Positions 1,179 to 30,362 of a stretch of 64,000 bases of DNA are shown here, in pieces (position 1 is the first letter of the stretch; each line of letters starts with the position of its first letter). The DNA is from Rosistilla carotiformis (GTDB lineage: Bacteria; Planctomycetota; Planctomycetia; Pirellulales; Pirellulaceae). Location: positions 992,001 through 1,056,000 of the forward strand of contig NZ_CP036348.1 of NCBI RefSeq assembly GCF_007753095.1, read 5' to 3'. Position numbers and translations under genes: made by a program. The notes under the pieces are model-generated. The model had not been told where the DNA came from and searched no databases. It saw only the letters and a program-made list of their open reading frames with translations.

Positions 1179-1285
1179 GTTTGCACGGGTGGCCACTCGA
1201 CTCCGCCGAGCGCCTTTTTTCAATAGCTTCGTAGACCAACAAACGGTCCACGCCACCAAAGCAGCAAGCAACAACTCAACCTCTC

Positions 1286-2248
1286 CTAAACAACCGACGT
1301 CGCGATTGCCGCATCTTCGTTGATCTGGCAGATCAATTCCTCTAGCACGCGAGCGGCGTCATCGTGAGCGACCTGGCAGGTTCCGGCAGCGGTGTGCCCG
1401 CCGCCGTTGTACTTCAGGCACAGCTCGCCAACATCGGTGCTGCAGCTGCGGTCGAAGATCGACTTGCCGATCGTAAAGACAGTATTCTGCTGCATCTTTC
1501 CCCACAGCACGTGCATCGAAATATTGCACTCGGGAAACAGCGAATAGATCGTAAAGCGGTTGGTCGCATAGATCGTCTTTTCATCGCGGAGATCCAAGAC
1601 GACGAGATTTCCATAGACGGTCGAACATCGTCGGATCTGCTTCTTCGCTTGCGATTCATGCGCGCGGTAAATGGTGATTCGCTCTTGGACATCGGGAAGC
1701 GCAAGGATTTGGTCGATTGAATAGCTTTTGCAACAATCGATCAAATCCATCATCAATTGATAGTTTGATATCCGGAAGTCGTGGAATCGTCCAAGCCCGG
1801 TACGGGCATCCATCAGGAACGACAGGAGTCCCCAACCGCTCGGATTCAAAACCTCCTCGAGATCAAATTTTGCCGAATCGGCTTTGTCGACCGCCTGCAT
1901 CATGTCTTCGCCAATTTCGGGAAAGCGTTGCTTGCCGCCGTAGTAGTCGTAGACGACGCGTGCCGCGGAATCGGCCCCAGGAATCAAAATGTAGTCGTCG
2001 CTTTCTAAATCCTCGTTTCGCGTGATTTCACTGGTGTGATGATCAAAGCACCGATGGCACCCTTTAACGTAGGGTAGGTTCGTCAAAATATCGTTTTCGG
2101 TGACATCGACGATCCCGTCCTGGACGTCTTTAGGATGGACAAATTTGATTTCGCCCAAAATCCCTAACTCTTTGAGCAGGATTGCACACACCAGCCCATC
2201 GAAGTCGCTGCGTGTCAATAAACGGTACTGTTTTGTCGTCGTTGCCAT
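1286..2248 (-). CDS. DHH-family phosphohydrolase (DHH plus DHHA1 domains)
   Basis: The 320-residue product starts at the ATG at 2248; an extension to 2329 is possible but that N-terminus (MAQCALSSLRATSH...) looks non-coding. Motifs in order: TRSDFDGLVCA near the start (metal-binding D-x-D), FDHHTS (the DHH signature) near residue 70, a GADSAARVVYDYY segment, and YNGGGHTAAG near the C-terminus (the GGGH of DHHA1). DHH/DHHA1 proteins hydrolyse phosphodiester or pyrophosphate bonds (oligonucleotides, cyclic dinucleotides, polyphosphate). The length is short compared with RecJ and lacks the OB domain, so a NrnA-like or exopolyphosphatase-like role is more likely than RecJ. It faces away from the PKS-side operon and is separated from it by 273 bp. 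Confidence 0.85.
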   Translation of the reverse strand: MATTTKQYRLLTRSDFDGLVCAILLKELGILGEIKFVHPKDVQDGIVDVTENDILTNLPYVKGCHRCFDHHTSEITRNEDLESDDYILIPGADSAARVVYDYYGGKQRFPEIGEDMMQAVDKADSAKFDLEEVLNPSGWGLLSFLMDARTGLGRFHDFRISNYQLMMDLIDCCKSYSIDQILALPDVQERITIYRAHESQAKKQIRRCSTVYGNLVVLDLRDEKTIYATNRFTIYSLFPECNISMHVLWGKMQQNTVFTIGKSIFDRSCSTDVGELCLKYNGGGHTAAGTCQVAHDDAARVLEELICQINEDAAIATSVV

Positions 2249-2521
2249 GTCAGGGTGCCTTCGGAATGAGTTGCTGTGGAATGCGTCATGACTTGTCGCG
2301 CGCAATGATGACAATGCGCACTGTGCCACTACTCATTCATAGAACACTCGGAGGCCTAGGAAAACGTGGCGTTCTCTGTGTCGGGGAAGAAAGGTTGCTG
2401 AAGGTCCGGTATTACCGATTGCACCTTAAACGCTGCGGGAAAATGATCTCTCTGGTGTGCACGTGTGCACCGATCCAGGAGTTGATCCATGTCGAGGATG
2501 GATGCGCGCCATCGACCAGGG

Positions 2522-3559
2522 CTAGAATAGCTTCAACGTCTTGATGATCGACAATAGTTCCCGGACTGAATTCCCCTGGGTGCAGCTGACGTAGACGGGC
2601 TTGGAATCCCCGCCAAACTTCTTCTTGTGAGACGCATTGCCTTGGAACGGATACAAGAAATTTAAGTGATCGTACGCAAAACGAAGAGAAAAGTTCGTGA
2701 TGCGACTGTGGGGAAAGACTTCTTGGAGATCATAAAGCGGTGAGAAGCCGAGTGTGACGTATTGGATCTCTTCCAATGCAAACAACTTGATTGCTTCTAA
2801 AATACAAAAAGCGCTCGTGCCATTAGGGGCGTCGGAAGCAATCCTGTCGATGTTGTGGTAGTAGGCAGATACCTTTCCAGCATCGTAAATCGGATCGAAA
2901 CTTGTCATGCCGATCAGTTTGCCGTGTTGTCGCGCGGTTAGGAAAAAGACATCCTCTTCGTCGCAAGCCTGAAACGGTCGGGTCAGCAACGTGAATTCTC
3001 GACCGCTGCGATTCTTAAGCCAAGCATTGGAAAGCGATTGGATTTCGTTTGGATCGAGATCGGAGATCTTGCAATGTTCAACAACGACCTCCTCGCGTTC
3101 ACATTTGTTTCGCCATTGCCGCAGTTTGCTACGGTGTTTGCCGTTCACGTTGAATCCGGCTAGCGGTATTTCTGTTTCGATACCAAAACAATTCACTTGG
3201 TAGCCCATCGATGCCAACACCGTTGCGTAATCATGGTCGATCTGCAGGAAGATCGCCTTAGGGTGTTGTGCCAAAAAACGTTGTGTCAACGCCTGATAGT
3301 TAGCGGGAGCACAGATGGGATTCGAAACGACAATTTTGCGGCCCGTGACTGCCAACAACGGATGGCGGAAGCTCTGGAATGCGATGTAACCCATTTCGTC
3401 GTCGATGAAATATTCCAAGCCTGGCTGAAGACTGGAGTATCCAAGGCAACGTTTGCCGTGCTGTCTTAAAAAACGAAACAGATCGTCTCGTGGTTCGACG
3501 GTCTTTCGTGGGATTGGGGCAACAGGGGCACTGCTCCGAGGCGATGTTAGAGAACTCAT
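2522..3559 (-). CDS. DUF2156 / phosphatidylglycerol lysyltransferase C-terminal-domain protein (GNAT fold)
   Basis: A soluble 345-residue protein with the layout of the catalytic part of LPG synthase (MprF C-terminal domain): HGKRCLGYSSLQPGLEYF near the N-terminus, HRSKLRQWRNKCEREE in the middle, LIGMTSFDPIYD, VSAYYHNIDR, then YVTLGFSPLYDL and HKKKFGGDSKPVYVSC at the end. Family members move an aminoacyl group from charged tRNA to a lipid headgroup or modify lipids in related ways. The N-terminal membrane flippase of MprF is absent, so it would act at the cytoplasmic side. It is the last gene of the minus-strand block, 70 nt after the FemAB-like gene, which suggests co-transcription with the PKS. 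The substrate is unknown; a plain N-acyltransferase role is the main alternative. Confidence 0.8.
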   Translation of the reverse strand: MSSLTSPRSSAPVAPIPRKTVEPRDDLFRFLRQHGKRCLGYSSLQPGLEYFIDDEMGYIAFQSFRHPLLAVTGRKIVVSNPICAPANYQALTQRFLAQHPKAIFLQIDHDYATVLASMGYQVNCFGIETEIPLAGFNVNGKHRSKLRQWRNKCEREEVVVEHCKISDLDPNEIQSLSNAWLKNRSGREFTLLTRPFQACDEEDVFFLTARQHGKLIGMTSFDPIYDAGKVSAYYHNIDRIASDAPNGTSAFCILEAIKLFALEEIQYVTLGFSPLYDLQEVFPHSRITNFSLRFAYDHLNFLYPFQGNASHKKKFGGDSKPVYVSCTQGNSVRELLSIIKTLKLF

Positions 3560-3629
3560 TGCAAATCGTCCGATACAACTCTTGCGAGTTGTGGTGTTTT
3601 AGGTTGACTTCCGATTGAAGCAAGTTTTC

Positions 3630-4955
3630 TCAAGGATGATCGCTGGGGCAATTGTTGAATGAGAGATCTTTGCTTTGATGGGACTTTTGGTCTCGCGGGC
3701 GTTGGTCTCTCGGCGAATTTTGTTCGCGCGGAGAGAGTTTGTTCCCTGAGCGCGGTTGATCCCTCGGTGTCTGTTTACTTGCGTTGGGCCGCTTCTTGCT
3801 GAAGGTTTCGATCGGAGGCAGCAGCGCTATGGGGGGTAAGACAAAGGGGCGGATCAACCAAAGTAAAGGCCGGAAGATACGTCTCCCCTTAACATAAATG
3901 TTTAGCGGCACCTGTTTGCAGCCGAGCCTTACCTTGAAGGAGTCCGAAGTCTGGCCAAAATTGATCCGAGCTACGTTTTGACGAAGGCCATAATCCATGT
4001 CGGCAAACATGACGTTGAAATACAAGTGTGCCTGATCGTTAATAGCGTAGTCGATACCACAGAACAAAAGTTGATAAGAATTTCCATATTTCAGAGAACA
4101 CGAGACGCCCACGATCCGTTCGGCTTGGTATATAAACGTGAAATGCGCTGAATCCCCCATTTGTCGCGACAGTTCGTGGAAGAACGCCACGGGGGCTGTT
4201 TCCAGTTTTGCCGGGGATTTTTCTCGAACCTCTAGGTACAAACGATGCGCTTCGTCGGTGAAGCGTTCGATCGCCTCGGGGCCTCCCGGAATCTGGACTA
4301 CGTGACAACCCGCCTCGCGGAGCTTCCGCAATGATTGCCGAATGCTGGAACGGCTTCGGGCGCTACGAGCAGCCAGATAGGCATCGAAGCTTTCAAACGC
4401 GGGTTCCAAACGGTTCATCGGTAGGCTGTCCGCTTTGTGATAGCGGAGTTCGCGACTGAATTGATCCGTCCATGAGGAGTCCGAATTTTCGAACTCCTTC
4501 AGAACGATCAGCGCGGCGGACTCGCGACCCGCAATGTCTTGCAACGCACAATCCATCATCTGGACCACCGCCTCGTGATCGGTGTCCTGAAGAATCAGCA
4601 GCCCCCGTTGTCCCGCGGAAATTGGCAATCCGGCAAACACGATCTTCAAATGCAGAAACGATGGTAGGAATTCTCGCACGGTTCCAATGAGTTTCTGGAC
4701 GATCCCTTCGGTCAAAATTCCCGCATCGGCGCGGTAACGCGTGATGCACGAGATCGCAACGGGACGGTCTCCATCGTAGAAGATAACCGGCCAACAACAG
4801 GTGTCGGCCGCCATTGTCGATTCCACAACGCGGATGAAACGAAGGTCGGAGAATGTATCACCGACGCACTGCTGGACCGAGTTCCATTCATTTTCAGGAA
4901 CCTCGGTTGTCGCATTGAAAATGCGATAGTGAAACGCTGTCGTTTCTGTTGTCAC
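3630..4955 (-). CDS. FemAB/Acetyltransf_6-like GNAT protein with a Pro/Arg/Gln-rich tail
   Basis: The 441-residue protein starts at a GTG only 9 nt after the PKS stop codon, so it is very likely translated from the same message. Residues 1-180 form a degenerate first acyltransferase-like half. Residues 190-358 match Acetyltransf_6 (BioF2/FemAB-like): SSIRQSLRKLREAG, ahead of ERFTDEAHRLY, HFTFIYQAERIVGVSCSL, and INFGQTSDSFKVRLGCK. This fold is used by tRNA-dependent peptidoglycan aminoacyltransferases and by many exopolysaccharide/lipid-associated acyltransferases. Residues 359-383 are hydrophobic and proline-rich and may bind the membrane. The last 55 residues are basic, low-complexity and repeat P-R-D/E-Q four times. 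Tailoring of the polyketide product is an inference from position. Confidence 0.75.
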   Translation of the reverse strand: MTTETTAFHYRIFNATTEVPENEWNSVQQCVGDTFSDLRFIRVVESTMAADTCCWPVIFYDGDRPVAISCITRYRADAGILTEGIVQKLIGTVREFLPSFLHLKIVFAGLPISAGQRGLLILQDTDHEAVVQMMDCALQDIAGRESAALIVLKEFENSDSSWTDQFSRELRYHKADSLPMNRLEPAFESFDAYLAARSARSRSSIRQSLRKLREAGCHVVQIPGGPEAIERFTDEAHRLYLEVREKSPAKLETAPVAFFHELSRQMGDSAHFTFIYQAERIVGVSCSLKYGNSYQLLFCGIDYAINDQAHLYFNVMFADMDYGLRQNVARINFGQTSDSFKVRLGCKQVPLNIYVKGRRIFRPLLWLIRPFVLPPIALLPPIETFSKKRPNASKQTPRDQPRSGNKLSPREQNSPRDQRPRDQKSHQSKDLSFNNCPSDHP

Positions 4956-4964
4956 GGGATTCGC

Positions 4965-7900
4965 CTATTGAACGCTATTGGCCGGATCGGATTCGAGCGA
5001 CGGGAAAGCACCGGTTCGCTTGAGGCATTCCAGATACAAATTCAACAGTCGTGTATCGACCTCGGCACAGCGGATTTCCAACTGACTCAGCATCCGTAAC
5101 GTGATTCGGCAGTCGTATTTGGGATGCAATGCCGGTGCAACGCCGTTGTTATCTGCCGCGTCGGGAACCATTGTCTTGACCAACGTTTGCATGGTTTCCA
5201 TTGGGACGCGCGCGGTCAACGCCAATAGTTCCGAACGCCATTGATCGTAGGGAACCGGACGGATTCCTGTCCCGTCGCGTTGCATCCATTCGACGAGGTA
5301 CCTGTAGTTCAATGGGTTGGGGTTCGTCAGGTGGAAGACTCCACCTAGCGATTCGGGTTGCTGCGAGATGCCTACGATTGCGTTGGCAACGTAATCGACC
5401 GGCGTCATGTCCAGTTCTCCGGAACGCAGTGGAGCCGATCCCATCCGCCAACATGTCAACATGATCGTATGCAGCAGGTCGTCGATGTTCGACGCCCCGG
5501 TCTCGCTGTGTCCGGTGACGTGTCCAGGACGGTAAATGGCCGCCGGAATACCGCGGGCTTGCGCCTGGCGGATCATCGTTTCGGAAACCCACTTGGACTG
5601 CGAGTATCCGTGCAACAAGGATTCGGGTGGCGGCAACGGATCGTTCTCGTTCACCGTTTCTCCGCGTGTTGCTTCACTGGCCATCACCGTGAAGGTCGAG
5701 ACAAAGTGAACCGGTTTCAATCGGGATTGCGCGGCGAGTCGCAAAACTTCTTGAGTTCCCAAAACGTTGGTGTTTTTCAATTGAGCGTAAGGTGCGCCCA
5801 AATTGACGTCGGCACCGTTATGGTAGATCCCGTCGAGCACCTCGGCCAATTCATCAAACTGCGACTGCGACATCCCGAGGAGTGGCTTGGAAAAGTCACC
5901 GCAAACCGGGATGACGCGCGCATCGAACTCCGGAAGCACCAAATCATATTTTCGAAGATTGTCTTGAAGTCGTGTCGCAGCGCGTTCGCGATCCTTGGCG
6001 CGAACCAAGCAATAGACCGTGGCGTCGGTCTGCAACAATAATTGCTCCAACACAAACGCCCCTACAAAACCGGTCGCTCCGGTCAGCAGGACCGCACGGG
6101 GGGCTGCAAATTCGTATTTAGCGTCGGTTGGCGGAACAATCGATGGATCGAGCATCGCTTCTTTGGCGAAATCGACATCGATGGCTTCGCGCCCCGCGCG
6201 ACTCAATAGACTCGCCTTCGACGGCGCCGAAGGCGACTCGGTTGAACCACTCGGAACCGTCGCCAAGCACCGGAAATCGGCAACGCGTCGATTGGGCTGC
6301 TGGACCACTTCTTCCAACAGTTGCTGGAAGAGTTCGTGCAGACCTGCGATCGTTTCGTCGCTATATCGGGTGGCGTCGAATTCCCAGCCACCAATCAAGG
6401 TCCCATTGGCGAACTGCAAACGCAGGCAGAGCGCGTTGGCCGATTGAGCGTGTTCAAAGTCGATCGACTGCAATGAGTTCTCCGCCACGTTGGCGACCAC
6501 GCCGGCAACTCCCAGACCCAACGCGGTGAGCCCTGCGGCATCTTCACCTGGGATCTCGTTCATTGAAAAACCAACCCCCAACGCGTTGTGGATCGGTTCG
6601 ACACCAGCATCCTGCTGCAGCAGCGCGAGCGAGATGGGGTAGTGTTCATCGGCGGCCATTTGCGCCGTCTGATTGCGTGTCAACAACTCCACAAACGTGG
6701 GGTCGTCACCGGTTTGGCTGCGTACCGGAACCGAGGTTGCAAACGGTCCCACCACGTTCCGCAGTTCAGCGTGTCGTCGACCGTGCATCGCAAGTTCCAA
6801 AACGATATCGGAACGGTTGGCGTAGCGGTGCAATAGGATCTGAAACGCGGTCAGCAACACGCGTTCTTGCGGTACGTCCTGTTCGGCCGCCAAGGTCACC
6901 AATTGCTGTGACAAGTCCGGTGGAAGGGTGAAACCTGCCGTTGCATGCCTCGCGGCGCGATCGTTGCAATCGTGATCGGCAGGCAACGCAAAGTCCCATG
7001 ACGCTTCCTTTAAAAGCGTGTTCCAGTAGTTCCGCGTATGTTCGGCGCGATCGCCCGAAAGCCATTTCGCTTGCCAAGCGGCAAAGTCTTCAAAGGTCAC
7101 ACTTGTCGCCGCGGCAGGGAGCGATTCACCCTGCTGTTGCAAGGTGTAATGTGTCAGCAATTCCCGCATCACAATCGTCAGCGATTGCGAATCCGCAACG
7201 GCTTGATGCGCGGTGATCGCAAGGATCGTCTCGTGTCGGCTGATAGGGAAAAGATCGACTCGCACACAAGGACCCGATTGCAGATCAAACGGGTGATCGA
7301 CGCATTCCTTTAAACGGCCTTGAATATCGCTGGCAACGTGCGAGTCGTGGACCGTCACGCAGCAGTTTGGTCCGTCGTTAGCACCGTAGCTTTGCACAAG
7401 ACGTCCGTCACGAGGATGGAAGCGAGCACGTAGCATTGGATGCCGCGATCGCAAATCATCGAATAATTGGATGATCGCGTTAGGATCCAAGTGGCTTGAA
7501 ACCTTTGCGATGGAAACGACATGTTGCGAGCTGTATTCGTCCATCGGTTGCAACGCGACAAACTGCTCGGCGGTCAATGCAAACGTATCCTCGCGATGTG
7601 CCAGGACTTCCAACGGCACGTTGTTCGAAACTTCCGCCGCTTCACCGGTTCCGTTGGATTCGGAAACGTTGGCCGATTCGAGCAACTGACGCAGTACCAC
7701 TTTGGAGAAGTCTTTGATGCTTGAACCGCCAAGCACGCTTCCCATTGCTATGGTCACGCCCAGTTCGGTTTCGATCCGATTCATCAGATCGATTGCCATC
7801 AACGAGTCGAGTCCCAGGGTGGTCAGCGACGCTTCACGGTCGACTTGCTTCGCTTCGATGCCAAACACATCCGCGACCTGGTCGGCGATCAAGTTTTCGA

Positions 7901-10900
7901 CGAGCGCAATCTGTTCTTGCGGCGACGCAGCGATAATCCGCGGGCCCAGCATGCTGCCAGATCCACTATCGCTTTGATCACCGATCACTTCGGCAAACGT
8001 CGGCGCGGTGGCGACCATCGGACTGAAACGAGCCAGGGCTGCCCAATCGGCGCGGCAGGCTCCCAGTTGAACCGGGTTTCGCGACAACATTTGACGATAG
8101 ACGCGGAACGCCTCGTCCATGCTGAACGCTTTCATTCCGATCTTGTCCAGATAGAGCGCGGTCTTCTCGTTGCGGTCGACAAAACCGGCTCCCGACAATG
8201 CGGTCCAGTTGTACGTCAGCGCGGGCAACCCCAATGCGTTGCGATAGTGTGCCAATGCGTCGAGGAAACAATTGCCGGCGTTGTAGTTCGATTGCTTCGC
8301 ACCACCGACGATATTCGAGAACGATGAGAAGCAAACGAAATGTTCCAGCGGGGCGTCGAGCGTCGCTTGATGCAGGTTCCACGCGCCCAGCAACTTCGGA
8401 TTCATGACTTTATTGAATCGTTCGTCGTTCAGTTCAACAATGAATTCATCGTCCAAAACCATCGCGCTGTGTATCACGCCACGCAGCGGAGGTAGCGTGG
8501 CGGTGATTTCGTCGACGACGCGTTGAACATCTTCGGGAGAAGTCACGTCGCCTCGGGCGTCGACAACCTCGATGCCCGACGCTCGCAGTTTTTCGATGTC
8601 CGCGATCGCCGCTTCATCGCGGGCCCCACTGCGACTCATCAAGACCAGATGTCGGGCCCCATGTTGGGCCATGAATTTCGCATGTTCGAGTCCAAATCCG
8701 CTGGCACCACCAACGATTAGGTAACTCGCTTCCTGGCGGAACAGGTTCGCGTCTTCGGTGCATGGACCGATCGCTAATTGATCGACTTCGAACGAAAGCA
8801 CGTTCTTGCCGATGTGTTTCCCTTGCGCCATGTAGCGGAAGGCGTCGACCACTTCGTTGATCGGGAAGACCGTATGCGGCAATGGTCGGAAATCGCGTGC
8901 TTCGAATCGTTCAGACAGCTCTGCAAACAGCGACGCGATAAATGCTGGCCGGTGCTCCAGATGCTGGGCCAAATCGATCACGAAGTAGGAGATGTTGTTC
9001 CGTAGTGCTTGTAGACCAATTTTGGAATTTCCGTAGACATCGATCTTGCCAATCTCTAGGAAGCGTCCAAACGGCGCCAGCACGGAGAAATTCTTAGGAA
9101 TAAAGTCGCCGGCCAACGAATTCAAAACCGCGTCGACACCGCGCCCCTTAGTGATCGCCATCACTTCGTCGGCAAAGTCCAACGAACGCGAATCCATCAC
9201 GTGAGGGACGCCCATGTCGCGTAAGAGTTGCCGTTTTTCTGGCGTTCCCGCGGTTGCGAAGATCTCCAGGCCCAGGTGCTGCGCAATCTGGATGGCTGCC
9301 TGTCCCACGCCACCGGTGCCGGCATGGATCAAGATGCTTTCGCCCGCTTGCATGTGAGCCAATCCGCAGATCGCGTACTGTGCCGTCAGGAAGACCGTTG
9401 AGAGGGTCGCTGCTTCTTGAAATGAAAGATGTTCGGGCATCTTGAAGCACAATCGACGATCGATCGTCGAGAACGAACGGAACGAATAGGGAGCCATTCC
9501 GGCCACCGAGTCGCCCACTTTCAGATCGGTCACTCCCTCGCCAACGCGAGTCACGGTTCCCGCGAAATCGTCGCCGAACCACAGCAGGTCGATCGGGTTG
9601 CCGGGGTACATTCCCAACGCCTTCATGACGTCGCGGAAGTTAATCCCCCCGGCTTTCATTTCGACCTCAATTTCGCCAGCACCAGGTGCGCGGCGACTGG
9701 TTTCGTTTAACGACAGGTTCGTCAAGATGCCCGGCTTTTCGGTCTGCAATCGGTACGCTGCCTTGCCATCGGGTTGGAATGCATCGCGTGTTCGTTTTCG
9801 CAGGTCATCCAATGGTACCCGCGACAAACGATTGACGAAGCGGGTTCCATTGCGGTAGGCAATTTCCAGTTCGGCATCGCCTGCCGTCACTTCATGCCGC
9901 AACGCGTCGTGTTCGGAAGTCGAGCCGGCAGGATCCAGGTCGATCACTGTCCAGCGGAATCCTGGATGTTCGTTGTTGGCAACGCGTGTGAACCCAACGA
10001 TCGGTGAAGAGGCGAGGTGGACACAGGTGTCGCTATCAAGAATGCTTTGCGCTCCGCGAGTCACGAAGCGGACGCGTGGAGGTTGTGCGAACGGACGACC
10101 TTCCAATAGGTGGACTAAACGTAACGCGTGCAGCGATCCGGTTGCTTGCGCGGCCTGCAAGTCGGAGGCCTGTAGTTTATCGGCCGCAGGATGGTCCAAG
10201 GACCAACAGTGCACGATCCCTGCCAAGTCGTCGATCCGGACCTCGGTATCGGCCATGATCCGACGCATGTCGTCGACCGATTCGGGGCGGATGGTGAATT
10301 GTTCCGCACTTTGCTTAGCGAACTCGTCACCCGCTCGAACCGCAACCGCTTGATGTCCTTCAGCGGTTAAGGATTGGCAAAGCGTCTCGCCGACACCTTG
10401 TTGATCGATGAAGACCAGGTAGGTCGCCGGAGTGGTGGTTGTCGCTGGGGCTGCCGCGATGGGAGCCGCGTCGATCGACTCCGTTTCGCCTTCAAGCGAT
10501 TCGGAGGTTCCCGCATCGCCGTCGTCCGATGCTGCCGGTTGCCAATGGAACTGGTAATATCCGTTTTCGATCGCATCGGCCGATTTCTTCTGTTCGGCGA
10601 GATCGGCGCGGAAGCCCAAAATGTCGGCGATCCGATTCCCTTCGTCGTCGTAAACGAAGATGTCCGCCTGCAAGCTCTTGCCATCGTCTGCGATCTGTTG
10701 AGCGTGTGCCCAGAATCGCGTGGGCGGATTTTCGCAATACATCCGCACGCGGCCAATGTACTGAGGCAGATAAAAATAGTCGGCTGCCTGCTTTTCGGGC
10801 GACAGTGTCTGAACGCCCTTAAAAATGTGGAAGCAGGCGTCCAAGACCGCTGGATGGATATGGTATTGGTCGACCGTTTGCTCGATCCCCGCGGGCACGA

Positions 10901-13900
10901 TCACTTCGGCCAAGGCTTCTCCGGTATCACGCCACACATGATGGATGTGTCGGAACAGCGGTCCAAATTCGTAACCTGCTTCGGCGAACTCCCCATAATA
11001 TTGTTCGTGTTCCATCTGGTTGGGCAATGCCGCCCGCAACTGCTGCAAATCGACAGCTGCTGGCTGCGGCGCGGACAACAACGTCAGTCGGCCTTCGGCA
11101 TGCAGTTTCCAGTCTTCGCGACGCCCTGTCGAACTGTAGACGCCATAGCTGCGGTCCTTCTCGTGGAACACGACACGCACACGAGGAATCCGTTCGGCGG
11201 AGACAAACAAGGCGTCTTTGATGTCGACGTTTTCGACGACGTAAGCCTCGTCGGGGAACAGATGGCGGGCCAATGCCAAACCAATTTCGCAATATCCGGC
11301 GCCGGGGAATACCACCGATCCCCAGAACGAATGGTCCGACAAGTAGTCGAAGACGTTGAGATCGAGCGCGGATTCCCAGGTCGGTTCGGGAGCGATCACG
11401 CGACGGCCCAACAGCGGATGGACATCGGTCTGCAGCCAAAGCAGATTCATGTCGTCGGGGCTCAGCCAATTCCGGGTGTGATGCCACGGGTAGCGCGGCA
11501 GTTTTACCAAGTGCCCCGGGGTTTGATTGACGGCGGCCCAATCGATCGCCATCCCGGAACAATGCAAACCGGCCACGTTGCTCAGCAGTTGTTCCGATTC
11601 GTCGGTCTTGCGACTCAACGAATGGAAGATCGTTCCCTGCTTGCCTTGGTCGGCTAAACATTGATTCAGCGAGCTCATTAGCGCGGGATGGGGACCAATT
11701 TCCAGGAACGAATCGGCGCCCGCGGCGATCATATGATTGATCGCGGTGCTGAACAGGACGGGGTAGCGAACGTTCCGCCACCAGTAATGCGCGTCTAGCA
11801 ACTCGCCCGACAATTCGCTGGCCGTGACGGTCGAAACGAGAGGGAGCTTGGCCGGACGAGGCTGGATGTCTGCCAGCGACTGCAGCAGTTCTTCCTTGAT
11901 CGGTTCCATTTGATGCGTGTGGAAGGCGTAATTGACACGCAACCACCGCAAGAATTTTCCTGTCTTTTCCAGCTCTTCGGCGATCTCCTCCAGCGGTTCG
12001 GTATCGCCGGCCAACGTAACTAAGTGGGAGCTGTTGATCGCCGCAACTTGGACGCGGTCATATCGATCCCCGATCCATTGCCGCGCTTCAGCAGCGGAGA
12101 TTCCAACGGCCAGCATCCGACCGGTGCCCGCCATCGTGTCTTGCAAACGGCTGCGGTGATAGATCACTTTGACCGCGTCGGCAAGGCTATAGACTCCGGC
12201 GCAATAAGCCGCCGCGACTTCGCCGACACTGTGACCAACGACCTTCGACGGGGTGACGCCCCAAGATTTCCAAAGCTCGACAAGTGCTACTTGCAACGCG
12301 AAGATCGCGGGCTGAGCAATCGCGGTTTGATTGATCTTCGAATCGGCTTCATCGCGTTGCATTTCGGTCAACAACGACCAACCGGCCAGTGGTTGCAACA
12401 GCGCATCGATGCGTTGGATCATCGCCCGGAAGATCGGTTCACGCGCAAGCAGTTCGCGGCCCATGCCCCACCATTGCGCACCTTGCCCTGTGAATACAAA
12501 CACCGGTTTATCGTGTTCGCCGGTTGCTTTGGCGTGCACAAATCCGCTGGCTTGGCTTGGATCTTCCAGCCAATCTCGCATTCGTTGTTGCATCGTTTCG
12601 CGGTCCGCGCCGGTGAACACCAAACGATCTGGGTGCTGTTCCTTGCGTGCGCCAGCTGAGTAACAAACGTCTCGCAGCGGAACCTCTGGACTGTCCAGCA
12701 AGTCGATAAACGAAGCGACATAGCTCTTCAACGCGACCTCATCGCGAGCCGAAATCGGCAGCAGGCACGGCCGCTGGGCCCGTTCGGGCGCGGCGTGATC
12801 CGGGGCTCCGTTGGTCGCACCATTGGCAGCGCCGTTGCTCGCCCCATTCTCTTTAGGTTTGTTGGTGAGTGACGCGATCGCGGTTTGCGATTGCAGACGC
12901 TGGCGAGGCTTCGCGGATGAAACATTCTGCGGGGCCGCTTCCAGGATGACGTGTGAATTGGTTCCACCGAAGCCAAACGAATTGACCGCCGCGACCGGCT
13001 GCTGCGAATCGTAGTGCGGAAGCGGTTGCAAATCGGTTGCAACTTGCAACTGCAGTTTGTCGAATGGAATGTTGGGGTTGGGGGTTTGGAAGTTTTGATT
13101 CGGTGGCACTTGATCCTTGTGCAACACCAACGCGGCTTTGATCAAACCCGCGATTCCCGAACCGGCTTCCAAGTGACCGATGTTCGTTTTGACCGATCCC
13201 AGCAGGCAGGGTTGGTCGACAGGGCGGCCTTGCGATAAGACGCTGCCCAACGCGGCAAGTTCGATCGGGTCACCGACCGAGGTGCCGGTGCCGTGCGCTT
13301 CCATGTAGGCGACTCGGCTGGGGGCTAAGCCCGCTTCTTGATACGCCTGCCGTAACATCGCCGATTGTCCATCGACGCCGGGGACCGTCATCGACGATGT
13401 GTGTCCATCTTGATTGACCACGGCGCCCCGAATCACCGCGTAGACCGAATCGCCATCGGCGATCGCTTGGCGAAGCGGCTTGATGTAAACCATGCCAGCG
13501 CCTTCGCCACGGACGTAGCCATTGGCGCGCGCATCAAACGCAAAGCATTGCCCGTCGGGGGAGAGCATCGATGCGCGGCTGAAGCCCATCGTCGCATGCG
13601 GGGTGAGGATCGAGTTGACGCCCCCCGCCAACGCACCGGTCGCTTTCCCCGACCAGATACTCTCGCAGGCTAAACTGACCGCCACCAGCGCCGACGAACA
13701 GGCGGTGTCGACCGAAACGCTGGGGCCTTTTAAATCGAGCAGATAGGAGACGCGGTTCGATGCGATACTCAACGTGCAACCGCTGTTGGTGTGCACGTCG
13801 GCGCTTACGTCTTCGGACATCTGGATGCTGGCGAAGTCGTGGCTTGCAACGCCGACGAAGACGCTGGTTTGCGTCCCTTTGAGTTTGCCAGGGGCAATGC

Positions 13901-14249
13901 CCGAATCCTCGATCGCTTCCCAGGCGGTTTCCAACAACCAGCGTTGTTGTGGATCCATCCGCGATGCTTCGCGAGGCGAAACTCCCCAGAAGAATGGATC
14001 GAAGTCTTCGATCCCATCGACGAAGCCACCCCATCGCGTCACCATGCGATTGGCAACGTCGTTTTTCGGATGGTAGTAGTGGTCTCGGTCCCATCGTGTT
14101 TCCGGGACCTCGACGATTCCTGAACGGCGTTCGGCCAGCAGGTTCCAGAAGCTTTCTGCATCAACCGCGCCACCAGGCAATCGGCAACCAATGCCTACAA
14201 TAGCTAGAGGTTCACCCTGGTGTGGGGCAGCCTTGGAATCAACATTCAT
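4965..14249 (-). CDS. Highly reducing type I polyketide synthase, KS-AT-DH-psiKR-ER-KR-ACP-C-thioester reductase
   Basis: 3094 residues, one full module plus two release-type domains. KS about 13-440 (Cys184 in DTACSSA, His319 in EAHGTGTS, His359 in NIGHLEAG). A Ser/Asn/Ala-rich linker 460-490. AT about 580-880 (Ser674 in GHSVGE; YAFH at 774-777, Phe favouring malonyl-CoA). DH about 940-1215 (His973 in HxxxGxxxxP; Asp1137 in HPAVLDACFH). Structural pseudo-KR about 1275-1475. ER about 1500-1820 (HAGTGGVGQ at 1642-1650). KR about 1840-2080 (GGASGFG; LDD at 1932; Tyr1989 in YNAGN; B-type by the LDD). ACP about 2115-2190 (Ser2149 in LGLDSL). Condensation-like domain about 2220-2660, with HQAVADS at 2348-2354 instead of HHxxxDG. 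SDR-type thioester reductase about 2717-3080 (GATGFVG; Tyr2882 and Lys2886 in YSQSK), implying NAD(P)H-dependent release as aldehyde or alcohol. All reductive sites look intact, so a saturated acyl chain is expected. No loading domain is seen; chain length and starter are unknown. Confidence 0.95.
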   Translation of the reverse strand: MNVDSKAAPHQGEPLAIVGIGCRLPGGAVDAESFWNLLAERRSGIVEVPETRWDRDHYYHPKNDVANRMVTRWGGFVDGIEDFDPFFWGVSPREASRMDPQQRWLLETAWEAIEDSGIAPGKLKGTQTSVFVGVASHDFASIQMSEDVSADVHTNSGCTLSIASNRVSYLLDLKGPSVSVDTACSSALVAVSLACESIWSGKATGALAGGVNSILTPHATMGFSRASMLSPDGQCFAFDARANGYVRGEGAGMVYIKPLRQAIADGDSVYAVIRGAVVNQDGHTSSMTVPGVDGQSAMLRQAYQEAGLAPSRVAYMEAHGTGTSVGDPIELAALGSVLSQGRPVDQPCLLGSVKTNIGHLEAGSGIAGLIKAALVLHKDQVPPNQNFQTPNPNIPFDKLQLQVATDLQPLPHYDSQQPVAAVNSFGFGGTNSHVILEAAPQNVSSAKPRQRLQSQTAIASLTNKPKENGASNGAANGATNGAPDHAAPERAQRPCLLPISARDEVALKSYVASFIDLLDSPEVPLRDVCYSAGARKEQHPDRLVFTGADRETMQQRMRDWLEDPSQASGFVHAKATGEHDKPVFVFTGQGAQWWGMGRELLAREPIFRAMIQRIDALLQPLAGWSLLTEMQRDEADSKINQTAIAQPAIFALQVALVELWKSWGVTPSKVVGHSVGEVAAAYCAGVYSLADAVKVIYHRSRLQDTMAGTGRMLAVGISAAEARQWIGDRYDRVQVAAINSSHLVTLAGDTEPLEEIAEELEKTGKFLRWLRVNYAFHTHQMEPIKEELLQSLADIQPRPAKLPLVSTVTASELSGELLDAHYWWRNVRYPVLFSTAINHMIAAGADSFLEIGPHPALMSSLNQCLADQGKQGTIFHSLSRKTDESEQLLSNVAGLHCSGMAIDWAAVNQTPGHLVKLPRYPWHHTRNWLSPDDMNLLWLQTDVHPLLGRRVIAPEPTWESALDLNVFDYLSDHSFWGSVVFPGAGYCEIGLALARHLFPDEAYVVENVDIKDALFVSAERIPRVRVVFHEKDRSYGVYSSTGRREDWKLHAEGRLTLLSAPQPAAVDLQQLRAALPNQMEHEQYYGEFAEAGYEFGPLFRHIHHVWRDTGEALAEVIVPAGIEQTVDQYHIHPAVLDACFHIFKGVQTLSPEKQAADYFYLPQYIGRVRMYCENPPTRFWAHAQQIADDGKSLQADIFVYDDEGNRIADILGFRADLAEQKKSADAIENGYYQFHWQPAASDDGDAGTSESLEGETESIDAAPIAAAPATTTTPATYLVFIDQQGVGETLCQSLTAEGHQAVAVRAGDEFAKQSAEQFTIRPESVDDMRRIMADTEVRIDDLAGIVHCWSLDHPAADKLQASDLQAAQATGSLHALRLVHLLEGRPFAQPPRVRFVTRGAQSILDSDTCVHLASSPIVGFTRVANNEHPGFRWTVIDLDPAGSTSEHDALRHEVTAGDAELEIAYRNGTRFVNRLSRVPLDDLRKRTRDAFQPDGKAAYRLQTEKPGILTNLSLNETSRRAPGAGEIEVEMKAGGINFRDVMKALGMYPGNPIDLLWFGDDFAGTVTRVGEGVTDLKVGDSVAGMAPYSFRSFSTIDRRLCFKMPEHLSFQEAATLSTVFLTAQYAICGLAHMQAGESILIHAGTGGVGQAAIQIAQHLGLEIFATAGTPEKRQLLRDMGVPHVMDSRSLDFADEVMAITKGRGVDAVLNSLAGDFIPKNFSVLAPFGRFLEIGKIDVYGNSKIGLQALRNNISYFVIDLAQHLEHRPAFIASLFAELSERFEARDFRPLPHTVFPINEVVDAFRYMAQGKHIGKNVLSFEVDQLAIGPCTEDANLFRQEASYLIVGGASGFGLEHAKFMAQHGARHLVLMSRSGARDEAAIADIEKLRASGIEVVDARGDVTSPEDVQRVVDEITATLPPLRGVIHSAMVLDDEFIVELNDERFNKVMNPKLLGAWNLHQATLDAPLEHFVCFSSFSNIVGGAKQSNYNAGNCFLDALAHYRNALGLPALTYNWTALSGAGFVDRNEKTALYLDKIGMKAFSMDEAFRVYRQMLSRNPVQLGACRADWAALARFSPMVATAPTFAEVIGDQSDSGSGSMLGPRIIAASPQEQIALVENLIADQVADVFGIEAKQVDREASLTTLGLDSLMAIDLMNRIETELGVTIAMGSVLGGSSIKDFSKVVLRQLLESANVSESNGTGEAAEVSNNVPLEVLAHREDTFALTAEQFVALQPMDEYSSQHVVSIAKVSSHLDPNAIIQLFDDLRSRHPMLRARFHPRDGRLVQSYGANDGPNCCVTVHDSHVASDIQGRLKECVDHPFDLQSGPCVRVDLFPISRHETILAITAHQAVADSQSLTIVMRELLTHYTLQQQGESLPAAATSVTFEDFAAWQAKWLSGDRAEHTRNYWNTLLKEASWDFALPADHDCNDRAARHATAGFTLPPDLSQQLVTLAAEQDVPQERVLLTAFQILLHRYANRSDIVLELAMHGRRHAELRNVVGPFATSVPVRSQTGDDPTFVELLTRNQTAQMAADEHYPISLALLQQDAGVEPIHNALGVGFSMNEIPGEDAAGLTALGLGVAGVVANVAENSLQSIDFEHAQSANALCLRLQFANGTLIGGWEFDATRYSDETIAGLHELFQQLLEEVVQQPNRRVADFRCLATVPSGSTESPSAPSKASLLSRAGREAIDVDFAKEAMLDPSIVPPTDAKYEFAAPRAVLLTGATGFVGAFVLEQLLLQTDATVYCLVRAKDRERAATRLQDNLRKYDLVLPEFDARVIPVCGDFSKPLLGMSQSQFDELAEVLDGIYHNGADVNLGAPYAQLKNTNVLGTQEVLRLAAQSRLKPVHFVSTFTVMASEATRGETVNENDPLPPPESLLHGYSQSKWVSETMIRQAQARGIPAAIYRPGHVTGHSETGASNIDDLLHTIMLTCWRMGSAPLRSGELDMTPVDYVANAIVGISQQPESLGGVFHLTNPNPLNYRYLVEWMQRDGTGIRPVPYDQWRSELLALTARVPMETMQTLVKTMVPDAADNNGVAPALHPKYDCRITLRMLSQLEIRCAEVDTRLLNLYLECLKRTGAFPSLESDPANSVQ

Positions 14250-14363
14250 ACTTAAAAAACCTGCCGTTTTGTATCGCAGCCCAAAGAAATTTATTCGCTA
14301 ACGGATGGTGCGGTGAAAGTGGAAGCCAACTAAGAATTCACGCACGCCCCCCCTATCTTTCCC

Positions 14364-14392
14364 ATTTTAATCACGTGGGGAGTGCCGTTCAA
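14364..14392 (-). promoter_or_regulatory. Predicted sigma70-type promoter of the PKS operon
   Basis: On the minus strand there is TTGAAC (14392-14387), a 17-nt spacer, and TAAAAT (14369-14364). This is close to the housekeeping consensus with ideal spacing. It sits about 115 nt upstream of the PKS ATG at 14249, so the PKS and the two GNAT genes could be transcribed independently of the exporter upstream. Found by eye only; such boxes also occur by chance in AT-richer intergenic DNA. Confidence 0.45.
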
Positions 14393-14542
14393 TTGGCAAT
14401 TATTGTTTTGCCCATGCAGGTGTCCCTGGGGTGGCTTGGGGCATGGCGCCGCGTCGGTGGATCGCGAGAGAACAGCCAGTAGACGGTACGAAGGGGGGCA
14501 AGGTCCCCTTCTTTTGCTCTTCCGTTATGGAGGGGCTGTGTT

Positions 14543-16828
14543 CTAGCGTCGCGGCAGAAAAGAATTGCCCAGGCGACTGCTGATGATCGCCGGCAGGACG
14601 ATCAGGTCTCCGATCAAGGCGACGCCCAACATGCTTGACATTAACCACGCAAACCGCGCGATCGGAGTGAATGGACTGAACGCATAGACCAACAGTCCCA
14701 GTCCGCAGATCATCGACGTCTGCAGCATCGCGCGACTGCAATGCCGGAAGGCGTAGACGAGCGCGTCGTGTTTGATCAGCCCCGCCGCGGCCCCGCGCCG
14801 GAACCAGGTCACGAAATGCAAGGTGTCGTCGACAGCGATTCCCATCGCCGCAGTGATCGTCATCATCGATCCGATTTCCACCTTAATGCCTAACCATCCA
14901 AGCAGGCCAAAGAGGATCACCGAGGGGAGGACATTCGAAACCATCGCCATCAACCCCGCGCCGATGCTCCGCAGGGTGACCATCATCGCCACGGCGATTA
15001 AGGCAAACGCGGTAATGAAGCTGCGGGCCATGTCGTCCAGCAATTGTTCCTGCGCTTTTTGGATCAGCGGCATGCTGCCGCAGACAACGCTACGAACGCC
15101 CTGCTGTGGTGCGAGTTCTTCAATCACGGAATCGATTGCTACTTGCAGCTGATCGCCCACTCTTCCCAAATCGATCTCTTCGGAAGTCGGAACCCGCGCG
15201 CTGATTCGCCACAGTTCTTCCGTATCATCATCTTGGAAATACTGCATCTCGCGAAACATCTCGCGTAGATCTGTAAAACGTTGTTCTAGAACAATGCGTT
15301 GAGCGATCTGGCCGATGCCTCGCGAACCCGATCGAAACGTGTCGGGGAAGGAGGGCGAAAAGTTCACGGCCGACACGGTTCCGCCAATGTCGTCAACTCG
15401 CATCGCAGCATGTTGAACTTGGCGGACCAGATTCATCCGGTCGAGCATCGGTGTCCGGCTGGTGCTTTCCGCGATCGTGGCCTTGGGGATCCGAAGCACG
15501 ATTTCCACGGGAGTCAGTGGACCGACATGCGATTCAAACCATTCGTAGTCTTGTAGGATCTTGGCCCCGGGGGCGAACAGATCGTGCACGCGGGCGGTGG
15601 ATTGAAGTCTCGTGATTCCGATCACCCCAATCGTCATCGCAATGGCGGTGCTCAGCAAGATCAACGGCCACCAACGTGCGATCGAATCGACCATGCGTTG
15701 GGAAATCGCATTGCGGAGGTCAGCGCCTCCGCCGGCCAAACGGGATGCCCAGCGTCGTGGGGGCCATTGTTCCAGCTGGCAAGGAAATAATAGAAACAGA
15801 ACCGCGGTCCCCAGCAGTACGCCTATGGCTGCGAAAAGCCCGAACTTCTGAATCGGCAACAAGAAGCTGCTGATCAATGAAATCAACCCTAGACTGGTCG
15901 TGAACGACGACAGCCAACACGGGGCAAACGCGTTTCGAATCGCCTTGCGTGGGGCCTCGGTGAGACCGTCGGCAAGGACCACGTCTTGGTAGTTATTGAC
16001 GAGGTGAACGCCCGCGGAAATGCTAAGCACAAAGACTAGCGAAGGGACCATCAGCATCACGCTGTCCATCGTTTGACCGCCGAAGGAGATCATCGCAAGA
16101 CTGATCGTTTGGCAATAAACCGCGTTTAGGAATACAAACGCGCTCAGCTTGATGCTGCGGAAACTGAGATACAGAACGATACAACAAATCACGTAGCAAA
16201 CCGCGGTGAACCAGCCCATGTCTTTCTGACTCGCTTCATCGATGGCGAGTCCGTCATACGTTGTTCCTGCGATATGGATCTGATCGCGCGACACGCCAAC
16301 AATCTGCTGGGCGGTGGCTTGGACGTGTTGAATGGTTGCGTCGCGCAACCGCCAACCTTCGTCGGTCAGCATCATGACAACCGAACTGGTGACCGGTTGG
16401 CCTGCGGCATGGGGAGCGCCTACCAACCAGCCATTCAAACGAGCGATCGCTTGAGATTTTTTCAGCGACAACGGTTCACTGGTCAATTGAGCGACGAGGT
16501 CACTGCCCGAGGTGACGAACCGAAACAATTGCACATTTTGTTCGCCAGCAAGATCCACCGGTTGTTGCAGTTGCTGCGTGAGTTCTGTTTGCCGTGGATC
16601 GTCCAGGTGGCATCCGTCCCAGCTGAGGATCAATACATCATCACTGACAAATTTCTCCGAGAACCAGTTGAGATCTTGGGTCTCTTGAAACCGCTCGGGC
16701 AACCAATCTTCGGGGCGGTTTGAGTTCGTGGACAGCGCGTCGATGGCGCCACGAACAATGGGCAGCGCGCAGAATAATGCCAGGAGCAGGATCGCGATTC
16801 GGTAGCGGAATATGGTAAGAGACCCCAT
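14543..16828 (-). CDS. MMPL/RND-family membrane transporter
   Basis: The 761-residue protein has the two-fold RND layout: a first transmembrane helix (about 8-28), a large extracytoplasmic loop, a bundle of about five helices (roughly 200-350), a helix near 390, a second loop and a final bundle (roughly 610-750). GIAVDDTLHF in the last bundle is the MMPL proton-relay signature; the matching helix in the first half (SISAGVHLVNN) lacks the acidic pair. MMPL proteins use the proton gradient to move lipids, hopanoids or polyketide lipids across the inner membrane, and mycobacterial MmpL genes sit beside PKS genes. It lies 293 nt upstream of the PKS on the same strand, which makes the PKS product a likely cargo (inference). 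Hopanoid transport (HpnN-like) is the alternative. Confidence 0.85.
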   Translation of the reverse strand: MGSLTIFRYRIAILLLALFCALPIVRGAIDALSTNSNRPEDWLPERFQETQDLNWFSEKFVSDDVLILSWDGCHLDDPRQTELTQQLQQPVDLAGEQNVQLFRFVTSGSDLVAQLTSEPLSLKKSQAIARLNGWLVGAPHAAGQPVTSSVVMMLTDEGWRLRDATIQHVQATAQQIVGVSRDQIHIAGTTYDGLAIDEASQKDMGWFTAVCYVICCIVLYLSFRSIKLSAFVFLNAVYCQTISLAMISFGGQTMDSVMLMVPSLVFVLSISAGVHLVNNYQDVVLADGLTEAPRKAIRNAFAPCWLSSFTTSLGLISLISSFLLPIQKFGLFAAIGVLLGTAVLFLLFPCQLEQWPPRRWASRLAGGGADLRNAISQRMVDSIARWWPLILLSTAIAMTIGVIGITRLQSTARVHDLFAPGAKILQDYEWFESHVGPLTPVEIVLRIPKATIAESTSRTPMLDRMNLVRQVQHAAMRVDDIGGTVSAVNFSPSFPDTFRSGSRGIGQIAQRIVLEQRFTDLREMFREMQYFQDDDTEELWRISARVPTSEEIDLGRVGDQLQVAIDSVIEELAPQQGVRSVVCGSMPLIQKAQEQLLDDMARSFITAFALIAVAMMVTLRSIGAGLMAMVSNVLPSVILFGLLGWLGIKVEIGSMMTITAAMGIAVDDTLHFVTWFRRGAAAGLIKHDALVYAFRHCSRAMLQTSMICGLGLLVYAFSPFTPIARFAWLMSSMLGVALIGDLIVLPAIISSRLGNSFLPRR

Positions 16829-16948
16829 GGTGCCCTATACTGGATTTGCAGGTTGGCCATACGAACAAGTCTGAAATCATAGTGATAATTTCAGGCAGAG
16901 AAAGCACGTGCGATGCGATCGAGGCCGGCAAGACCCGTTCGGAGACCG

Positions 16949-17632
16949 CTATTGCGGATTTCCCAAAAACGGATCGACCAAATGCCGCAGTCCGATTTCT
17001 GATAGTTCCACGTTGACATCTTCTGTGGTGGGTGATTCCAGCGTGTCGGTGACTTCGTCGGCGATCAATTGTGCAAAACGAAGCTGCGCCGCCCGCAGGG
17101 CGTCACTGAACTGTTGCGGTGTGATCGCAATGTTCCGCAGCTTGGAAACACGCACTGCCAACATCGCCGTCGTATCGCTTGGGTGATCGGTTGCCATCCG
17201 CAACGCGCTGTATTCGATCTGCGTTGGATTGGCGTGTTCAAACCGTTCCAATCCACGCCAGACGCGCGCCAACAAACATTCCTGCCAGTTTTGAATCCAA
17301 GCCGGATCGTCGACCTGCATCTGATCCACCGGAGGCACGACGGCTGTTGGTTCGCGACGGTATTGCGCCGTCGCCGCCGCGCGCGCCGAACGCAACAGGT
17401 AGTCGCGAAGGCGACCCTTTTCCGACTCGCCAAATCCCTTCGACGCAAGATGTCCCAACAAAAGGACCAGCGATTTGTCGGCCGCTTCGCCATCGCCCCA
17501 TAGATCGATCAAGTAGTTTCGCATCGCGGTGATGTAGCGCATCGTGTAGCCGCCGGCGCTGTCGGCCTGCGACCAACGGGTCGATTGCCGCGCCAACTGG
17601 ATCGTTCGATCGGGGGGCTGCGAGGAGTTCAT
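16949..17632 (-). CDS. Divergent sigma-70/ECF-like protein paired with a Ser/Thr kinase
   Basis: The 227-residue product resembles planctomycete ECF-type proteins. Near the start it has a W-x-x-A-D-x-x-G-G-Y segment and MRNYLIDLWGDGEAADKS, followed by ESEKGRLRDYLLRSARAAA, like the K-G-R-F-R-x-Y-L segment of region 2. The C-terminal half (TQIEYSALRMATDHPSD..., then SDALRAAQLRFAQLIADEV) looks like a reduced region 4 without a clear helix-turn-helix. It starts 8 nt after the kinase stop codon, so the two are co-transcribed. Such pairs suggest a signal-transduction unit in which the kinase controls the sigma-like partner; promoter recognition by this divergent protein is not proven. Confidence 0.6.
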   Translation of the reverse strand: MNSSQPPDRTIQLARQSTRWSQADSAGGYTMRYITAMRNYLIDLWGDGEAADKSLVLLLGHLASKGFGESEKGRLRDYLLRSARAAATAQYRREPTAVVPPVDQMQVDDPAWIQNWQECLLARVWRGLERFEHANPTQIEYSALRMATDHPSDTTAMLAVRVSKLRNIAITPQQFSDALRAAQLRFAQLIADEVTDTLESPTTEDVNVELSEIGLRHLVDPFLGNPQ

Positions 17633-17640
17633 GCTGTGAG

Positions 17641-19785: not shown

Positions 19786-20235
19786 CCGCGTTTTAGGTTG
19801 ATCGAGATCGGGACGCTTGCCGTTGCGTAGGGCATCAAATCACCAGACTAAGCCCCGCACCTGCCCTGTTCAACGGTAGAGATGCTCTGCCGGAGTAATT
19901 CTTCCGGTGGCCTCCCTCTTGATTGGACTCCGCTCGATCGTTCTCCTCTCGTAATCGGCTGGGCATCGTCGATCCGATCATCACGGCAGCGTCTGGACCG
20001 GTGTCGTCGGGCGAGCTCTTCGGGCGTGCCAGTTAGATCGCTCAGGCGGCTCGTTCAACCTGCGGTAATCCAGCCAGCCAAGCCTAAATGTGTGTCGCTT
20101 TAAGAAAACGTTGTTGTTTGGTCGGCATGGATTATGGCAATATCTCCCGTCCCGGTCGCGATCGTTGGAAACGTTGGTTCAGCCGACCGTCGCACCGCTC
20201 GACTACTTGCGTCTTCGGCCGCAGCCGAGAATTTC
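19786..20235. other. 450-bp gap without a supported gene
   Basis: Lies between the MocR-type gene (ending at 20236, minus) and the kinase start (19785, minus), so it should carry the kinase promoter. Open frames starting near 20088-20134 run into and across the MocR gene and are shadows of it. I see no RNA gene and no strong hairpin. Confidence 0.5.
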
Positions 20236-30135: not shown

Positions 30136-30362
30136 GTCTTGATCCCCCAAATTGGAGTGCTGTAGCGGTGGCGACGTTGCCACTACTGGCAATTAAATGG
30201 GTTGCTTGGGTAACATGAGGGTGTTCAACGGGGAAACGTCTTGCGGTAAGGCTCACGCACTGCCGACACTAAATGGGGTTCCGTGCTGCTGATGTCCTTC
30301 AGAATCGATCTGCAGGCATCGGCTCAGCAAGTCAATTCTTCACTAAACTTGGACGAAGGCTC

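Follow-up and report, generated by a model that had tools for sequence, protein, structure and literature searches.

What is made, and where is it sent, by a row of genes in the planctomycete Rosistilla carotiformis that places a type I polyketide synthase (PKS) beside two proteins of the GNAT (Gcn5-related N-acetyltransferase) fold and an MMPL-family transporter? The genes lie in a 64,000-nucleotide stretch, hereafter the window, covering positions 992001-1056000 of the 7.44-Mb single-contig genome (G000); coordinates below are window positions. The original prediction, made from the letters alone, named four adjacent minus-strand genes, for an MMPL/RND transporter, a complete reducing PKS, a FemAB-like protein and a DUF2156 protein, as a candidate locus for an exported, modified polyketide lipid. 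Open reading frame (ORF) coordinates and Pfam matches agree with these genes, their positions and their families, and the FemAB-like gene does begin 9 nt after the PKS. The reducing domain set also stands, but the prediction overlooked a condensation domain (C*) between the carrier protein and the reductase of the PKS, as well as two further genes, a Ser/Thr protein kinase and P0005. From the sequences, we consider it a realistic, although tentative, possibility that the block of six genes makes and exports a head-group-modified lipid, in which a polyketide alcohol or aldehyde would receive a head group, perhaps aminoacyl, from the two GNAT-fold proteins before export by the MMPL protein. Papers are cited by PMC number, from excerpts.

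Chain assembly, release and the C* domain

The case is strong that the PKS assembles a chain and releases it reductively, as a primary alcohol or aldehyde, to judge by its domains. In alignment, the Cys/His/His residues of the ketosynthase (KS), the Ser of the acyltransferase (AT), the motifs of the enoylreductase (ER) and ketoreductase (KR), the Ser of the acyl carrier protein (ACP) and the GATGF and YxxxK motifs of the thioester reductase (R) are intact. The dehydratase (DH) is assigned by Pfam, its first motif not being pinned by the pattern used. R exceeds the curated cut-off of TIGR01746 (334.2 versus 213.35 bits), its closest solved counterpart in a sequence search of the PDB is the R domain of MxaA (2.2e-96), and its motifs are intact in all eight aligned PKSs; reductive release, as originally proposed, is thus supported. 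With the Pks2 and Pks13 models the PKS gives high scores that stay below their cut-offs, and Pfam detects no methyltransferase (MT) domain within it. The AT carries GHSVGE and YAFH, motifs that presumably indicate a malonyl extender. By analogy with its family, the PKS would be used iteratively with this extender to give an unbranched, largely saturated chain, which R would release by NADPH reduction.

A terminal R after a carrier protein is shared with the myxalamid synthase MxaA. However, MxaA belongs to a multimodular hybrid line, whereas here a single reducing PKS carries C* between ACP and R. Barajas 2015, a reference listed in PMC13303079, reportedly concerns primary-alcohol production, judging from its title.

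C* has a broken motif in a condensation fold, rather than the HHxxxDG of a catalytic condensation domain. In the window PKS the motif reads HQAVADS, the second His being missing. It is likewise HQ in G006 and G072, two sister-species genomes that together with G000 make up our genus sample of three, and it reads HPVIADA in KLAP164 (L083), HRIVGDK in G065 and HPLVADQ in G008. L084 and L085 retain the C-terminal lobe alone, with profile matches that start at 191 and 193 of 456. HHxxxDG is kept in none of these eight readable copies (L086 is not counted, as its sequence ends before the motif position). It is present in all seven separate condensation-like proteins found near related PKSs (L067, L068, L069, L085, L087, L088 and L232), the Condensation scores of which are low; L068, L087 and L232 do not reach the Pfam threshold, and PapA_C is weakly matched by two.

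Between species, C* is the least conserved domain of the PKS, at 62-70% identity versus 92% for R. Its ratio of nonsynonymous to synonymous substitution (dN/dS) is 0.13-0.15 for the window against G006 and G072, a comparison that rests on near-saturated synonymous sites, and 0.30-0.36 for G006 against G072. At 70-72% identity the DH-ER linker varies almost as much, and its dN/dS of 0.18-0.20 lies above the 0.13-0.15 of C*. C* is retained for some function, probably one other than condensation. Its top condensation-type match in the PDB is 4tx2 (1e-30), which we take to be the teicoplanin X domain, by a small margin over ordinary condensation domains (2e-28). We propose that C* may be a non-catalytic spacer or dock, offering the chain to R and perhaps serving to recruit tailoring enzymes, in the manner of the X domain of glycopeptide nonribosomal peptide synthetases, which carries HRxxxDD and recruits P450s (PMC11546977). 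In both cases a condensation fold with a broken motif follows a carrier protein; unlike the X domain, C* has no P450 to recruit among the six genes in a Pfam scan, and its recruitment of tailoring enzymes is a proposal.

It is highly improbable, in our view, that C* has kept its activity and frees or esterifies the chain, as terminal condensation domains do, with R as a minor route. HQ-type domains can be active, as in streptothricin ORF18 (PMC11546977), so the window's C* could be too, and the dN/dS of 0.13-0.15 indicates purifying selection. However, the motif position varies among HQ, HP and HR in relatives, some of which have no N-lobe at all, while the R motifs are intact throughout and R is the far more conserved domain.

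Putative head-group enzymes and exporter

Addition of a head group by the DUF2156 and FemAB-like proteins is plausible from the families to which they belong. The DUF2156 protein, P0003, reaches 130 bits for LPG_synthase_C (Pfam cut-off 27.5), and its residues 70-330 align with the lysyl-phosphatidylglycerol (PG) synthase 4v36 (2.5e-12), with the G..PL and K.K stretches among the aligned parts; the alignment with alanyl-PG synthase is weaker. It is not MprF, as the MprF model gives 91.6 bits against a cut-off of 600. It shares its LPG_synthase_C domain with the aminoacyl-lipid synthases MprF and ErdS but is a stand-alone protein of 345 aa, without their flippase or tRNA synthetase part. The FemAB-like protein, P0002, scores 36.9 bits for FemAB_like (cut-off 27), and its match to Acetyltransf_6 is better. 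The C-terminal tail of P0002 (approximately residues 396-441, window 3630-3770) consists of charged, repetitive sequence (PRDQ-like) and exceeds in length that of the sister-species proteins, which end about 20 residues past the matched part.

Enzymes of the DUF2156 type aminoacylate glycerolipids and, as ErdS, ergosterol, from tRNA (PMC9437257), and MprF accepts a neutral glycolipid for lysylation (PMC11630815). Because ergosterol and a neutral glycolipid serve as acceptors, there is precedent for hydroxyl acceptors besides PG. We infer that the GNAT-fold proteins use aminoacyl-tRNA: P0003 would transfer an amino acid from aminoacyl-tRNA to the hydroxyl of the released chain, and P0002 would add or extend the head group.

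The two proteins might instead use acyl-CoA or acyl-ACP in an otherwise identical PKS-R-MMPL pathway, giving a lipid ester or amide without amino acids. The preference of P0002 for Acetyltransf_6, its want of a PDB match (see below) and an acyltransferase-3 gene right behind the PKS in L086 all fit such a scheme, which we nevertheless regard as rather unlikely, given how P0003 aligns with 4v36, G..PL and K.K included. Very unlikely is the idea that P0003 acts on the ACP-bound chain before release, in the style of the thiocysteine conjugate addition proposed for the DUF domain of leinamycin-type PKSs, with C* as its docking site. In those PKSs a DUF2156 domain is embedded after a carrier protein (PMC3870968; PMC7618002), and the position of C* between ACP and R suits docking. 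However, no pyridoxal phosphate enzyme is found among the six genes (P0009, at 20236-21705 just outside, is a GntR/aminotransferase-fold protein), and L085 keeps a DUF2156 neighbor although its C* is without the N-lobe.

Returning to the aminoacyl scheme, its last step would be export of the finished lipid by the MMPL protein, for which family and neighborhood make a good case. The MMPL domain (PF03176) scores 69.6 bits against a cut-off of 20.5. The best NCBIfam model, TIGR00921 (HAE3), gives 108.8 bits, below its cut-off of 351.9, and the actII/MMPL model gives 77 bits, with a cut-off of 875. A hopanoid transporter of the HpnN type was considered and rejected: HpnN scores 48.4 bits against 751.85 and lies far away in the tree, and no HpnN match at 1e-20 occurs in the three genus genomes. 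Grouping with hopanoid transporters only, which would have spoken against the original prediction, is thus not seen.

In the MMPL tree, the protein groups with the MMPL of KLAP164 and that of G061, which lies near a family 2 glycosyltransferase (GT2) gene (moderate support, 87/88), inside a 12-row clade (strong support, 99/99). As the tree was built mostly from MMPLs chosen for PKS adjacency, it speaks to relatedness and not to enrichment. A PKS is found no more than 2 kb away from nine of the 11 best-scoring MMPLs: those of the three genus members, and six belonging to two further genera, g18 and g43 (L071, L080, L192, L193, L194 and L195), which share one arrangement. The other two, in G061 and on G054:C100, have no PKS within 2 kb in the stretch read. 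The link of MMPL and PKS is therefore also seen outside the genus, in KLAP164 and in g18/g43. The g18/g43 MMPLs are one gene away from a large PKS that we read as similar to polyunsaturated fatty acid synthases (KS-AT-three ACP-KR in L071, the other five by similarity). A metallo-beta-lactamase-like gene, identified by a Pfam scan of L071, also belongs to the shared set, which is another MMPL-linked lipid locus. More distant MMPLs also lie near PKSs (L186-L191), and in L185 an MMPL is paired with an R-domain protein. Among the best 114 MMPL matches, 69 are in genomes with a listed KS, and for nine of these 69 the distance to such a KS is at most 20 kb. The list of KS domains holds 127 matches at E 1e-70 and misses split KS domains of the L071 and L080 type.

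The mycobacterial sulfolipid and phthiocerol dimycocerosate loci likewise have an MmpL gene beside a reducing PKS, and there the product is released by Pap transfer. Here, in contrast, release would be by R, the MMPL is far below the actII/MMPL cut-off, and the same Pfam scan finds no acyl-activating enzyme among the six genes.

Organization of the six-gene block

The genes are transcribed in the order kinase, P0005, MMPL, PKS, FemAB-like and DUF2156, with gaps of 8, 120, 293, 9 and 70 nt (Table 1). This order is identical in all three genus genomes. In G006 and G072, with starts matched to those of the window, the PKS-FemAB gap is 10 nt and the FemAB-like and DUF2156 genes overlap by 4 nt.

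Table 1. Genes, domains and intergenic stretch of the block, in order of transcription
Feature	Window position	Strand	Evidence or remark
Ser/Thr protein kinase, P0006	17641-19785	minus	Pkinase 1e-50; likely membrane anchor (read by eye) and C-terminal extension
P0005, 227 aa, without recognized family	16949-17632	minus	8 nt after kinase; possibly regulatory
MMPL/RND transporter, P0004, proposed exporter	14543-16828	minus	MMPL 2.9e-19 (Pfam)
MMPL-PKS intergenic stretch	14250-14542	minus	weak promoter-like site 14392-14364, partly conserved
Type I reducing PKS, P0001, 3094 aa, KS-AT-DH-ER-KR-ACP-C*-R	4965-14249	minus	full Pfam domain set
C*, degenerate condensation domain of PKS, residues 2220-2665	6255-7592	minus	Condensation 3.7e-59
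R, thioester reductase of PKS, residues ~2719-3070	5040-6095	minus	NAD_binding_4 2.9e-68; TIGR01746 334.2 bits
FemAB-like GNAT protein, P0002, GTG start	3630-4955	minus	Acetyltransf_6 2.6e-13; FemAB_like 3e-9
Stand-alone DUF2156/LPG_synthase_C protein, P0003, 345 aa	2522-3559	minus	PF09924 1.1e-37

Compared with G006, the six genes (2522-19785) are 67-85% identical, with a synonymous difference (pS) of 0.52-0.76. Identity is 94-99% and pS 0.03-0.40 for 15 of the 18 flanking ORFs that had a partner (15 more without one in the 70 kb compared were dropped). The remaining three are P0007 at the left margin (88% identity, pS 0.49), a gene at 30273-32297, outside the block and among mostly conserved neighbors (85% amino acid identity, pS 0.58), and a short ORF at 32294-32980 (80% identity, pS 0.07). 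DNA identity drops inside P0007 near base 1,600 and returns near 19,900, just upstream of the kinase. The simplest reading is that the block was exchanged at a fixed locus in one lineage. Chance neighbors are rejected, given the conserved order and the joint divergence.

Between G006 and G072 themselves, pS is uneven (0.12 for FemAB and PKS, 0.26 for MMPL, 0.31 for P0005 and 0.44 for the kinase). Because pS climbs toward the kinase, that end has a partly separate history and is less firmly tied to the unit. In G072 the right-hand neighbors are kept from 23967 on; P0009, P0010 and the left flank are absent in the 70 kb read. Directly after the DUF2156 gene, both sister species have a gene for a 220-aa methyltransferase (Methyltransf_25 8e-17; L061:4840-5502 and L063:15415-16077). 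The window has no such gene there, its DUF2156 gene and P0007 lying 192 nt apart.

The kinase adjoins P0005 and the MMPL gene in G006 and G072 too, and from their position, kinase and P0005 probably regulate the block. P0005 has no Pfam match even at E 5 and is 80.6% identical in G006 and 80.2% in G072. Our impression from its sequence is that P0005 may be a degenerate protein of sigma-factor-like type that acts together with the kinase.

The claim that the PKS has its own predicted promoter is weak. Promoter-like sites do lie upstream of it, at 14426-14399 and 14392-14364. However, the region 1200-20300 holds four such sites, fewer than its shuffles (mean 7.9, standard deviation 2.6), and G006 and G072 conserve the downstream site only in part. 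The MMPL and PKS genes of G072 are separated by a Tn5-type transposase gene, antisense to both (L063:2040-3485), so the G072 PKS probably has its own promoter.

PKS-C*-R loci in relatives

Full-length C*-R matches occur in at least five of the 119 genomes of the window's family (G000, G006, G072, G065 and G008). Among the candidates scored, C*-R was matched across only in the window's own genome in the 392 genomes of the phylum, and in the 387 genomes of the class it was matched in full in the genus and in part in G801 and G790, both of g408. At most seven candidates were scored per genome in the family and two in the phylum and class sets, so these counts are lower bounds. L083, L084, L085 and L086 were added from the best 80 of 300 relatives.

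FemAB, DUF2156 and MMPL genes stand beside PKS-C*-R in all three genus members. Other PKS-C*-R loci have different neighbors, so the conserved neighborhood that was predicted holds across the genus but not beyond it. In KLAP164 (L083), PKS-C*-R, GT2 and MMPL genes follow in line, with a 4-nt overlap at each junction and an MMPL 44% identical to that of the window. In g408, a DUF2156 gene lies divergently upstream of the PKS in G801 and G855 (the genome holding L085). G790 has one beside the start of its PKS, the C*-R end of which is on another contig (the two were taken as one gene), and an acyltransferase-3 gene lies directly behind that end (L086). G612, also of g408, has DUF2156 only, away from any large PKS in the stretch read. 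The G065 contig is too short for its neighbors to be read.

The g408 DUF2156 proteins are 23-24% identical to P0003. Because the class has two families in which a DUF2156 gene adjoins the PKS, with DUF2156 types about 24% alike, DUF2156 seems to have joined the PKS-C*-R type twice, from different sources. The pairing recurs although PF09924 is rare in the window's family, with 36 matches (two of which are fragments of a single place) spread over 33 of the 119 genomes. Within the family of g408, which we read as Planctomycetaceae, 44 of 170 genomes hold the g408 type, DUF2156-B. Among the 20 DUF2156-B places read, second copies included, two adjoin a PKS, both in g408 (L231, the same as L085, and L232), and 18 have no large type I PKS, although four of these are on contigs below 11 kb (some blind); two of the 18 have a short FabF-like KS within 5 kb. 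Adjacency of DUF2156 and PKS can thus be incidental.

This bears on an alternative in which PKS and MMPL form a lipid pathway, and the DUF2156 and FemAB-like proteins modify ordinary membrane lipids or peptidoglycan and share only regulation with it. Each of the three genus genomes has a single PF09924 match at 1e-10, namely this DUF2156 gene, so a general role in PG aminoacylation is possible; the 18 DUF2156-B places without a large PKS point the same way. However, the PKS, FemAB-like and DUF2156 genes diverge together, the junctions are tight (the 4-nt overlap in the sister species and the PKS-FemAB gap of 9-10 nt), and a separate pairing of DUF2156 with the PKS is seen in g408. We consider this alternative unlikely.

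Several observations weigh against our preferred reading, that of an exported polyketide lipid with a GNAT-derived head group. Those already given are the activity of some HQ-type domains, the uneven pS toward the kinase and the many DUF2156-B genes away from large PKSs. In addition, R could stop at the aldehyde. P0002 has no PDB match up to E 1 in a single-sequence phmmer search, in which a remote match could be missed, and among the 119 family genomes its close relatives are confined to the genus (68% identity in G006 and G072), with matches at 22-24% identity in only three family genomes outside it. Predicted structures are poor (mean predicted local distance difference test score 46 for C* and 38 for P0002). 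Finally, the PKS of G008 has a kinase gene upstream and a gene of CobW type downstream, and neither an MMPL nor an evident tailoring enzyme adjoins it.

Because relatives carry GT2, another DUF2156 or acyltransferase-3, and the sister species a methyltransferase, the core may be a lipid-alcohol platform with an exchangeable head group. In its fullest form, a planctomycete platform would combine a reducing PKS, a retired condensation domain and R with swapped head-group enzymes that perhaps dock at C*, the head group here being tRNA-derived; we hold this version to be doubtful. In cyanobacteria, the heterocyte glycolipid (hgl) islands comprise a PKS, a thioester reductase, a glycosyltransferase that adds glucose last, and an ABC transporter (PMC11804610). 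Similarly, KLAP164 and Rhodopirellula relatives pair PKS-R with GT2 (by resemblance in Rhodopirellula). The PKS organization is different, however, the transporter there is of the ABC type, and the excerpt of PMC11804610 makes no mention of FemAB or DUF2156.

G000 itself has a second PKS-R (L069, G000:C1:6990001-7010000), with domains KS-AT-DH-MT-ER-KR-ACP-R and without C*, flanked by a GT2 gene on one side and a condensation-like protein with an intact HHACCDG on the other. A similar set is found in Rhodopirellula rubra and Aporhodopirellula (L087 and L088), the GT2 there being assigned by resemblance. Such a set looks like a glycosylated-alcohol pathway.

In the open-licence PMC literature, we found no paper that combines FemAB, polyketide synthase and MMPL and, among the papers listed, none that by title or opening of the abstract deals with this gene arrangement. 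Excerpts report four PKS/NRPS clusters in Rosistilla ulvae, with less than 10% antiSMASH similarity to known ones (PMC8303584), and mention only a single study aimed at a biosynthetic cluster predicted in planctomycetes, that of a type III PKS (PMC12078418).

If the proposed pathway is correct, it would be a compact and testable route to an exported planctomycete lipid, and its PKS would allow the role of a motif-less condensation domain to be studied directly. With a tRNA-derived head group, the products in this genus would be aminoacylated polyketide alcohols, a lipid class that we know from no characterized pathway. Translation, through aminoacyl-tRNA, would then be linked to polyketide lipid chemistry.

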